A DNA stretch of 35,020 nt, taken from positions 1-35,020 of the forward strand of contig JAAYVD010000079.1 in assembly GCA_012517355.1 (NCBI GenBank), written 5' to 3'. The stretch's first letter is position 1. Every line of letters begins with the position of its first letter. Source of the stretch: Candidatus Rifleibacteriota bacterium (GTDB lineage: Bacteria > Muiribacteriota > Ozemobacteria > Ozemobacterales > Ozemobacteraceae). A program made the translations under genes and the position numbers. Shown here piece after piece: positions 2,253 through 22,788 of this stretch. A model generated the notes under the pieces. That model ran no database searches, was not told the DNA's origin, and was given only the letters and a program-made list of their open reading frames with translations.

Positions 2253-2291
2253 CCTCGTACCGCCCTCCTCCGGGCCCGCCGGGTCCGCGGA

Positions 2292-2343
2292 GGATGCGCC
2301 ATCCTGGCGCCCGCGGCCCACTTCCGACATCGTGTCGGTCGGG
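2292..2343 (+). repeat. Shortened copy of the 81-bp palindromic repeat
   Basis: Positions 2319-2342 match 11759-11782 (the end of tandem unit 1) with one mismatch in 24 bases, and 2324-2343 match 11845-11864 (the end of unit 2) exactly over 20 bases. The shared part contains a perfect hairpin, CCGACA-TCG-TGTCGG (2324-2338). The left side (GATGCGC, six variable bases, GGCG) resembles the start of the full unit, with its middle missing. The repeat ends 7 nt before the GTG start of the FHA-like gene, so its G-rich tail lies where the ribosome binding site should be. Confidence 0.65.
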
Positions 2344-11540: not shown

Positions 11541-11700
11541 GCAAAACCGGGAACAATGTAACGGATCGGACCGGGCAGGGCAATCGGAATCATCCGACCG
11601 GCATCATCCGATCTGTCGAACCCTGCCTGGAACAGGGCAAGGGGGATCAGGCCGCGGATGAACGGGTGGAAGCGGATCGAGCGGTTCGGCATTCGGGTGG

Positions 11701-11862
11701 GCCCCTTTGCGATGCGCGCAACTGGCGTTTCGCGCCGCCATCCGTGGCGGCAAAGGGGCACTTCCGGCATCGTGTCGGTCGGCCCCTTTGCGATGCGCGC
11801 AACTGGCGTTTCGCGCCGCCATCCGTGGCAGCAAAGGGGTATGGCCGACATCGTGTCGGTCG
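11701..11862 (+). repeat. Two tandem 81-bp palindromic repeat units
   Basis: Units at 11701-11781 and 11782-11862 are direct repeats with only about six differences. Each unit begins GCCCCTTTGC and carries its inverse, GCAAAGGGG, about 40 bp later (a perfect 10-bp pair in unit 1: 11701-11710 with 11750-11759). Each ends with a hairpin, CCGACA-TCG-TGTCGG in unit 2 (11845-11859), with one change in unit 1. So each unit can fold as two successive stem-loops. The 81-bp period is a multiple of three and the units are open in several frames, but there is no start signal or protein logic, so they are read as non-coding. Related sequence occurs at 2292-2343 and inside the SUI1 gene. Confidence 0.85.
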
Positions 11863-11881
11863 GGTCTCCTGGGGAATGGCC

Positions 11882-11908
11882 TTGGCCGTGCGGAATCAAT
11901 GGTAGAAT
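11882..11908 (+). promoter_or_regulatory. Possible promoter of the SUI1 gene
   Basis: TTGGCC (11882-11887) and TAGAAT (11903-11908) resemble -35 and -10 hexamers with a short 15-bp spacer. The -10 box ends 6 nt before the ATG at 11915 and no Shine-Dalgarno site lies between, so transcription would begin at or very near the start codon and the mRNA would be leaderless. The spacer is short of the usual 17 bp, so this is tentative. Confidence 0.35.
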
Positions 11909-11914
11909 GGTCGC

Positions 11915-12355
11915 ATGGGGAACGAGCGATCGCGACTGGTCTACACCACCGACGACGGCCGGATCTGCCCCGAGTGCGGGAAGCCTGCGGCCGGCTGCGT
12001 CTGCCGCCGGGGGCGCCGGGCCGCCCCCGCGCCCGGTGAGCGCACTTCGGAACGCGATACGGGCGGTTCCCACCGTCCTCCGTGCCGGCAAGGGGGCACT
12101 GCCGGCGCCGGGGCGGCCGGCACCGCGCGGGTGCGGCGGGAGACGAAGGGGCGGGGCGGCAAGACGGTGACCACGGTTTCCGACCTCGCCCTCGACGAGG
12201 CCCGGTTGGCCGCCTTGGCCGCCGCCCTGAAGAAGCGGTGCGGATGTGGCGGCTCGGTCAAGGACGGGATCATCGTCATCCAGGGCGACCACGCCGACGT
12301 CATCGTCCAGGAGCTGCAGAAGCAGGGCTTCCCCGCCAAGCGCGCCGGCGGCTGA
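11915..12355 (+). CDS. SUI1/eIF1-family translation factor (YciH-like) with expanded linker
   Basis: A 146-residue protein. Residues 18-33 form the short Cys-rich knuckle common in bacterial SUI1 proteins (CPECG then CVC). Residues about 72-142 are the SUI1 domain: VRRETKGRGGKTVTTV, CGCGGSVKDG and the closing IIVIQGDHADVIVQEL match eIF1/YciH closely. eIF1 family members bind the small ribosomal subunit and influence start-site selection; the bacterial members are less well understood. The linker between the knuckle and the domain (about residues 34-70) is Gly/Ala/Arg-rich and longer than usual, and DNA coding for residues 47-65 is related to the palindromic repeat just upstream. The ATG at 11915 has no clear ribosome site. 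Confidence 0.9.
   Translation: MGNERSRLVYTTDDGRICPECGKPAAGCVCRRGRRAAPAPGERTSERDTGGSHRPPCRQGGTAGAGAAGTARVRRETKGRGGKTVTTVSDLALDEARLAALAAALKKRCGCGGSVKDGIIVIQGDHADVIVQELQKQGFPAKRAGG
12054..12110 (+). repeat. Diverged palindromic-repeat copy inside the SUI1 coding sequence
   Basis: These 57 bases align without gaps to 11716-11772 of tandem unit 1 with 44 identities. The core, 12079-12106 against 11741-11768, has 25 of 28 identical. The segment lies wholly in the SUI1 linker and keeps the reading frame. It is more diverged than the tandem units are from each other, as expected for an older event constrained by coding. Confidence 0.6.
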
Positions 12356-20938: not shown

Positions 20939-21937
20939 ATGCCCATCAACTGTCATTGCCACATCTTCAGCCTCGAGTGCGTGCCGCTGGCGTTCCGGCA
21001 GCGGTTCGTGCTCGACCTGCGCAGCCCGCGGCAGGCGCTGGCCCACCGGGCGGTGCGCGCGGTGCTGATGCCCGGCGTGCGGCTCGAGACCTGGCTCGAT
21101 TTCACCCACCTGACCACGGCCCAGATCGCCGAAGCGCTGGTCGCCGAGATGGACGAGGCCGGGGTGGAGCTGGCCACCCCGCTCATGGTCGACATGGAGT
21201 TCAGTTCCGCCTACCCGGGCGGGGTGAAGGCCTACGACGAGCAGATCGCCGAGACCCTGGCGGCGGTCGCCCAGGTCAACGCGCGGTCCCCCGCCCCGCG
21301 GCTGCTGCCCTTCATCGGGGCCGACCCGCGCCGCCCCGGGGTGGCCGATCTCGTGCTCGGCCATCTCGCCACCGGGGCGTTCAAGGGGGTCAAGATCTAC
21401 CCCGTGATGGGCTTCCTGCCCGACGACGAGCGCCTCTACCCGGTCTACGCCTGGTGCGAAGCACACCGGGTGCCGGTCACGGCGCACTGCGAGAACGGGG
21501 GTCTGCCGGGCTACGACGGCTTCTACCACCTGGCCGCGCCCGAGAACTGGGAACCGGTCCTGCGCCGCTTCCCTGCGCTGGTGCTGAACCTCGCCCACTT
21601 CGACCGCACCGGCACCCCCTGGCAGGCCACCATCGAGGGGCTGATGCAGCGGTTCCCCCACGTCTACACCGACGTCTCCTTCGACACCGAGATGTTCTGG
21701 ATGCCCGGCCGCTACTTCGCCAACCTGCACCGGGTGCTGCGCACGCCCGTCCTGCAGGACCGCCTGCTCTACGGCACCGACTGGTACATGGGCCGGTTCC
21801 TGTGGTCGGAGAAGACCTACCTGACCTGGTTCACGCGCGGCGCCCGGCGGATCTTCTGGAGCCCGGTGCGGTTCACGCGCGGCGACCTGCGCCGCCTCAC
21901 CGAGGACAATCCGCGACGGTTTCTCGGCCTCGCCTGA
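20939..21937 (+). CDS. Amidohydrolase-family (Amidohydro_2-type) metal-dependent hydrolase
   Basis: A 332-residue cytosolic TIM-barrel protein. It opens with the metal-binding NCHCH motif (His residues in MPINCHCHIF), carries the barrel Lys/His regions FKGVKIYPVMGF and VPVTAHCENGG, a later LNLAHFDRTG, and the catalytic Asp in LLYGTDWYMG. This order matches Amidohydrolase_2 (PF04909) proteins related to aminocarboxymuconate-semialdehyde decarboxylase and similar decarboxylases or hydrolases. The substrate is unknown. The stop is followed by a structured intergenic stretch before a convergent gene. Confidence 0.85.
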   Translation: MPINCHCHIFSLECVPLAFRQRFVLDLRSPRQALAHRAVRAVLMPGVRLETWLDFTHLTTAQIAEALVAEMDEAGVELATPLMVDMEFSSAYPGGVKAYDEQIAETLAAVAQVNARSPAPRLLPFIGADPRRPGVADLVLGHLATGAFKGVKIYPVMGFLPDDERLYPVYAWCEAHRVPVTAHCENGGLPGYDGFYHLAAPENWEPVLRRFPALVLNLAHFDRTGTPWQATIEGLMQRFPHVYTDVSFDTEMFWMPGRYFANLHRVLRTPVLQDRLLYGTDWYMGRFLWSEKTYLTWFTRGARRIFWSPVRFTRGDLRRLTEDNPRRFLGLA

Positions 21938-21971
21938 CTCTTGCCACCTGACCCGGGCCCGGAAGCGGGCG

Positions 21972-22044
21972 GCGCCTTCGGGAGGCGCGCATCGGACGCT
22001 GGGCACCGACATCCACGGCCGCCGGGGGCTTCCCCGCCCGGCGG
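21972..22044. terminator. Hairpins between convergent genes
   Basis: The 191-bp gap between the amidohydrolase stop (21937) and the convergent membrane-protein stop (22129) is very GC-rich and folds easily. A 6-bp perfect stem GCGCCT/AGGCGC lies near 21973-21989, and an 8-bp perfect stem CCGCCGGG/CCCGGCGG at 22019-22044 with a 10-nt loop. Neither has a T-run on either strand, so a bidirectional terminator role is suggested by position only. Confidence 0.4.
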
Positions 22045-22128: not shown

Positions 22129-22788
22129 TCAGGGAACGCTGACCGGGACCGTGCGGCGGGCGTCGCTGACCCGGCCCTGCTGGAACGTCAGGTGGAGAAT
22201 GGTTTCCGGGCCTGGGGGATGATCGCGGGTTCCCAGGCCGAACAGCCAGTGCGTGGCCCCGGTGGTCGGGGAGGTCTGGCTGGCGTTCGGCGCCCCCAGC
22301 AGGGCGGTCACCTCTTCGGGGGTCTTGCCGGCCAGGGGATGGCTCTGAAGCAGGTCGAGGATCATGGGGTATCGTTTGTCCGGCGTCGCCACCCAGGCCG
22401 CCTGGTCGAACGGTTGTGCCCCGTACCGCAGGATCTCCTCGGCCTGGGTGCTGACCACGTAGTTGGCGCCGTAACAGAAGCCGGCCAGCAGGAAGCCGGC
22501 CAGCAGGACCTCCCCGAGGTAGTGCAGCCGGATGCGCGTGGAACGGCCGAGCATGGCCCCCTCCTCCTCGTAGAAGATGGGAACCTCGGCGTCCAGTTGG
22601 GAAAGCTCCCCGGCCTCCATCTTGGTAATCTGGCCGAGAGCATCGGTGACCTTCAGGATGAAGAGGACGGCGAACGTCAGCCCGTAGAAAACGAGAGAAG
22701 CCCACCCCGCCTCGACCGGATGCTGGTTCGTCGCATACCAGAATCCCGCGGGGGAAATCAGGAAGAGAATGAAGAACAGTTGATACAT
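22129..22788 (-). CDS. Membrane protein with C-terminal BamE/SmpA-like domain
   Basis: A 219-residue protein with hydrophobic segments at about residues 3-18, 31-48 and 88-112. The C-terminal part (about 151-219) resembles BamE/SmpA/OmlA: LAGKTPEEVTALLGAPN matches the family's 'G.t.eeV...lG.P' turn, followed by an aromatic strand (THWLFGL), LTFQQGRV and a closing basic strand. True BamE proteins are small outer-membrane lipoproteins; this one lacks a lipobox and instead has transmembrane helices, so it is a relative with the domain on a different anchor. The ATG giving MYQLFF is chosen because coding character begins there; the ribosome site is poor and a GTG six codons upstream is an alternative. 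Confidence 0.65.
   Translation of the reverse strand: MYQLFFILFLISPAGFWYATNQHPVEAGWASLVFYGLTFAVLFILKVTDALGQITKMEAGELSQLDAEVPIFYEEEGAMLGRSTRIRLHYLGEVLLAGFLLAGFCYGANYVVSTQAEEILRYGAQPFDQAAWVATPDKRYPMILDLLQSHPLAGKTPEEVTALLGAPNASQTSPTTGATHWLFGLGTRDHPPGPETILHLTFQQGRVSDARRTVPVSVP

Follow-up and report, generated by a model that had tools for sequence, protein, structure and literature searches.

An 81-bp palindromic repeat dispersed in a bacterial genome lies in frame within protein genes, very probably including that of a SUI1-family translation factor

The SUI1-family gene in a 35,020-nucleotide stretch of a Candidatus Rifleibacteriota genome (the window) is one of many genes with in-frame copies of an 81-bp palindromic repeat. 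We interpret this repeat as a non-autonomous mobile palindromic element, which spreads, forms arrays and is tolerated in frame within proteins; we place the probability of this reading at about 0.88. The linker of the SUI1 protein very probably holds a decayed element, an old insertion that now serves as a flexible linker. The best-known cases of palindromic elements inserted in frame into conserved genes come from Rickettsia and Wolbachia.

In the window, two A-type units lie head-to-tail on the + strand upstream of the SUI1 gene. Unit 1 (11696..11776) begins with the left hexamer GGTGGG, which follows a GGnnGG pattern, and is matched by the repeat profile at 11697-11776 (E 2e-22) and by the RNA model at 11700-11780. 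Unit 2 (11777..11863) is matched at 11777-11857 (E 1e-21) and ends in the hexamer GGTCGG (11858-11863), as located by right-end boundary analysis. Segments 11696-11776 and 11777-11857 are 91% identical and contain internal inverted repeats, in agreement with a preliminary description of this DNA, which had reported two near-identical 81-bp units of this kind before the gene. The gene itself (11915..12355, +) encodes a 146-aa SUI1-family translation factor with an N-terminal Cys knuckle, CPECGKPAAGCVC (residues 18-30; 11966..12004, +), recognized in an alignment of relatives. Its SUI1 domain (12125..12334, +) was identified by Pfam PF01253 (E 4.5e-20, residues 71-140). Between the two lies the decayed in-frame copy, which spans 12047..12109 (+) and corresponds to unit positions 14-76. 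A further A-type copy, possible and very degraded, lies at 21970..22028 (+), with a profile E of 0.09 that is not significant alone; it is intergenic, between a predicted gene end at 21937 and the next start at 22129.

The 81-bp unit is a dispersed repeat. In 1.88 Mb an iterated nucleotide profile found 269 units at E <= 1e-3, a number that rose to 304 when the threshold was relaxed to E <= 0.1. This 1.88 Mb is a sample of the 7.1-Mb source assembly (184 contigs; the window contig is G000:C158) and consists mostly of contigs already known to bear hits. Reversed sequence of the same 1.88 Mb gave 0 profile matches at E <= 0.1. Extrapolation to the whole genome gives, very roughly, ~1,000 units, a figure that the sampling bias may inflate. 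The 162-bp pair, used as a query, found 49 matches within its own genome. Units occur as singletons or in head-to-tail arrays, mostly intergenic. At E <= 0.01 there were 214 arrays, comprising 157 single units, 45 pairs, 10 triples and 2 quadruples, with a step size that was most commonly 81 bp and next most commonly 84 bp. Identities of 100% and 98.8% occur between units at unlinked loci, and these have therefore spread recently; other copies fall below 70% identity to the consensus. In a covariance-model search of 57 genomes, the family was present only in its own genome and in G002, one of the two other genomes of the same genus, which gave six weaker matches. Neither blastn against plasmid and phage records nor an exact-pattern search of viral contigs gave a match to the repeat.

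A second type of unit, B, is about 60 bp long; its 5' palindrome differs from that of A, and the 3' module CACTTCCGACATCGTGTCGGTCGG is common to both. One B-type unit lies in the window at 2281..2342 (+). At other loci B-type units adjoin A units, and they were found on contigs C13, C34, C124 and C153. Tandem B units were observed in G002 (L065). Separately, a SpoIIE/HAMP gene (G000:C22:129353 region) contains short tandem repeats resembling the 3' hairpin module only.

The ends of the arrays bear on how the element moves. The left boundary is a GGnnGG-like hexamer with nn free (GGACGG, GGTCGG, GGAGGG and GGGCGG among others), while the right boundary is GGTCGG in 63 of 93 arrays. This right end itself matches the left-end pattern, and junctions inside arrays are mostly GGTCGG. 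Left and right hexamers are identical in 10 of the 93 arrays only; because they differ in the other 83, we see no ordinary target-site duplication in the hexamer register, at which the comparison was made.

We suggest that new copies would be placed at GGnn(GG) sites with a net gain of exactly 81 bp. The copy's own GGTCGG end would offer a further target, and arrays may thus grow by whole 81-bp steps. Since 81 = 3 x 27 and all six frames of the consensus are free of stop codons, insertion into a gene lengthens the protein by 27 x n residues. Linkers and surface loops could accommodate the added residues, and the palindrome would be lost once the copy is in a gene. Movement itself may be a single-strand, hairpin-recognising transposition carried out in trans by a separate enzyme. 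We offer this specific mobilisation mechanism tentatively, at somewhat worse than even odds. The six open frames are not remarkable by themselves, as dinucleotide shuffling of the consensus also gives all six open in 18% of cases; the idea that they are a special adaptation was dropped on this ground, helpful though they are.

Where arrays in the 1.88 Mb lie close together, the genes separating them are ordinary cellular ones, and no transposase or other mobilising enzyme was found among them. A search for gene families adjoining arrays gave a best enrichment of p 0.0013 (15 of 31 genes), which was unconvincing after multiple testing and was set aside. The genome does contain a single RAYT-like Y1 transposase (G000:C109:4387-4713, L057), and its presence raises the alternative that this enzyme mobilises the units, which would then be REP/BIME-type elements. 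Such an origin would fit elements that form hairpins and lack ordinary target duplications. However, no unit occurs in the 3.3-kb locus around the transposase gene, which is bordered by its own palindromes GGGGACATGATACCGAACTC, a distinct family, and an 81-bp unit with a three-way junction plus a hairpin also argues against it. We consider RAYT mobilisation unlikely.

Insertion in genes extends well beyond SUI1. Among the 304 sampled units, 38 (about 13%) lie inside other predicted reading frames, as called with a home-made simple codon model, whereas coding sequence accounts for 83% of the total. Units are therefore strongly depleted in genes, yet not rare there. Counted as units and not as independent events, they use frames f2 (14), r0 (10), r1 (8), f0 (5), f1 (1) and r2 (0). 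Comparison with homologues covered five sites in four genes, and insert lengths in the compared genes were near 27 x n, UbiB excepted. In a GlcNAc-2-epimerase-like gene, three units fall within the enzyme, and two of these are near-perfect. At its first site 79, 79, 75 and 80 aa are missing from four relatives (three units would give 81), and at its second site 55-57 aa are missing from relatives. A UvrA carries 84 extra aa relative to four relatives, which are also missing from solved structures including PDB 2r6f. In an HI0933-like flavoprotein, two units in the FAD domain correspond to a net 56 aa relative to PDB 2i0z, close to the 54 of two units. The agreement was inexact for a UbiB-like kinase with two units (net 38-50 aa vs 54 expected) and for a RimK-like ATP-grasp protein (an insert of 19 aa vs 27).

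Four units at three separate sites lie in a 2,382-aa guanylate-cyclase/HAMP receptor (G000:C183:31047-38195), one of them apparently within a cyclase domain. In the UbiB-like orthologue of G002 (L235) the long inserts are different, occur both at the same positions and elsewhere, and perhaps come from another insertion family.

These insertions also help in judging whether the SUI1 copy arose by local duplication or recombination of the adjoining array, without a separate insertion. The array precedes the copy by 190 bp and has the same orientation, as such an event would have it. Against this, other in-gene inserts occur in both orientations and many have no adjoining array; moreover, the SUI1 copy is more diverged than its neighbours, with 75% identity to the consensus vs 86-90% for the neighbouring units. 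Local duplication is thus improbable, to about the same degree as RAYT mobilisation, and we favor an insertion in its own right.

The fold of the A-type unit is a three-way junction with a constant 3' hairpin, made of an outer stem GCCCCTTTGC/GCAAAGGGGC, two inner hairpins and the 3' hairpin CCGAC-atcgt-GTCGG. A stable fold of this kind could mean that intergenic units are selected functional elements, such as terminators, mRNA-stability elements or regulatory RNAs, and that in-gene copies are accidents. Unit 1 has a folding z of -3.4, with 0 of 200 shuffles equally stable. In the 58 distinct strong copies 93.6% of cells are paired, and both-side changes number 18 vs 7.0 in shuffles; this covariation in the strongest copies also speaks for function. 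However, the excess disappears when all copies, old ones included, are considered (121 paired both-side changes vs 123 in shuffles), and structure therefore belongs mainly to young copies, with pairing lost in older ones. Orientation relative to genes showed no clear bias (63 vs 48), the excess of units between convergent genes was slight with no strong bias in neighbour configuration, and an Rfam scan of the window matched no family. We judge selection for such a function slightly less probable still than the two alternatives above, and retain the reading of a mobile element.

Consistent with insertion of such an element, the SUI1 segment 12047-12109 scored 33.6 bits (E = 5.9e-8 in 1.88 Mb) against a profile built from 175 other units, with the SUI1 copy left out. 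When the codon order of SUI1 was shuffled 2,000 times, the top score was 11.6 bits, and codon shuffles of the linker only gave no profile match. The ungapped alignment of 12054-12110 to 11716-11772, with 44 of 57 identities (77%), was reproduced as first reported. The match to the consensus extends without gaps over 12053-12120 (about 53 of 68) and includes a terminal GGTCGG-like hexamer. The whole inserted unit is thus probably ~12034-12120, its left ~19 nt no longer recognisable; the location first proposed for the insert stands, while its extent is a little wider than the 12054-12110 given then. The reading frame of the copy is the commonest one among in-gene copies (RDTGGSHRPPCRQGGTAG vs consensus RETGVSRRHPWRQRGTSD). 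Of its 15 scorable stem pairs 53% form, and 0 of 7 changed pairs are kept; with its palindrome lost, the SUI1 copy is therefore a decayed insertion.

The copy sits in the stretch that joins the Cys knuckle to the SUI1 domain, where AlphaFold gives a pLDDT below 50 over residues 35-67, in line with the flexible linker into which the preliminary description had placed it. The linker is 43 aa long here, vs 14-19 aa in 70 distant homologues, and 43 - 27 = 16, the length left after removal of one 27-residue unit. Linkers of relatives are also shorter, at 16-17 aa in G009 and G007 (17 in the latter), 24 in G004 and 33 in G003. The preliminary description had proposed that a palindromic repeat entered the SUI1 reading frame, and had named many genomic copies and a shorter linker in relatives as what would support this; both were found, with hundreds of copies and linkers of 14-33 aa, and its proposal is upheld by the profile match, the shuffles and these lengths. 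The linker residues, instead of being conserved in distant SUI1 homologues, are absent from them. Because linker length varies in the family even without this element, as the 33 aa in G003 illustrates, it is mainly the profile match that supports the SUI1 case. Neither of the other two genomes of the genus, G001 and G002, has SUI1; the insertion is therefore not datable within the genus, and these genomes provide no empty site at the DNA level.

The similarity might instead be a chance match of two G+C-rich sequences, given that the alignment is 77% over 57 bp and that the linker is variable across the SUI1 family. This is very unlikely in view of the gap between 33.6 bits and the shuffle maximum, the lack of hits in the reversed genome and the extension of the similarity to the right boundary hexamer of the family. 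The reverse derivation, of the non-coding units from SUI1, had been left open at first and is now virtually dismissed despite the sequence similarity and the 190 bp proximity, since hundreds of palindromic copies exist elsewhere in a large genus-restricted family, SUI1 genes of relatives lack the segment, and the copy in SUI1 has decayed and is no longer palindromic. We conclude that insertion of the repeat into the SUI1 reading frame best accounts for the linker.

This route to new protein segments thus has a breadth that reaches outside Rickettsia and Wolbachia, operating here in a 7.1-Mb genome. Young, middle-aged and decayed copies coexist in one organism, which allows the stages between selfish DNA and protein linker to be compared. 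In addition, the 27-residue step supplies a concrete rule for inserts that keep the reading frame. It is possible, though we would not bet on it, that these repeats represent a class of mobile palindromes not described before, which form tandem arrays and whose ends reproduce their own target. Such elements would always be added in whole steps of 81 bp, or 27 codons, and may have supplied residues to perhaps at least 100 proteins of one genus, catalytic domains and a translation factor included.

Several known systems share part of this behavior. IS200/IS605-type single-strand transposition uses hairpins, makes no duplication and inserts beside a short fixed target. By analogy, such a mechanism would account for the hairpins, the lack of duplication and insertion beside a short target in the 81-bp family, whose ends are GGnnGG on the left and GGTCGG on the right; no element-associated transposase was found for this family. 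REP sequences, in one account palindromes of 20-40 bp (PMC3733652), and BIMEs resemble our units in being many hairpin copies without target-site duplication; in contrast, our unit is much longer, has several hairpins and shows no association with the RAYT gene of its genome. Correia/NEMIS (107 bp) and ERIC are short non-autonomous repeats whose open frames are fused in frame to genes (PMC2229807). The 81-bp family is likewise short and non-autonomous with in-frame gene fusions, but differs from such MITEs in lacking target-site duplication (hexamer register) and TA termini and in forming tandem arrays. PARCEL repeats are palindromic coding repeats, translated and tandem, found mostly in membrane and surface-protein genes of many taxa (PMC2996958); our repeats are palindromic, tandem and, within genes, predicted to be translated, but they are mainly intergenic and were found in one genus.

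The closest likeness is to the Rickettsia palindromic elements (RPE), which are palindromic, dispersed, intergenic and also in frame within conserved protein genes (PMC2229807, PMC10969869), with a length of 105-146 bp (PMC2229807). The 81-bp family shares with them a palindromic dispersed repeat that lies in frame in conserved genes and is absent from homologues. It differs in its 81-bp unit, head-to-tail arrays, three-way junction with constant 3' hairpin, share of about 13% of units in genes and 7.1-Mb host genome, and probably falls outside the described families. The 81-bp family thus resembles RPE and their Wolbachia counterparts in behavior, with a different anatomy.
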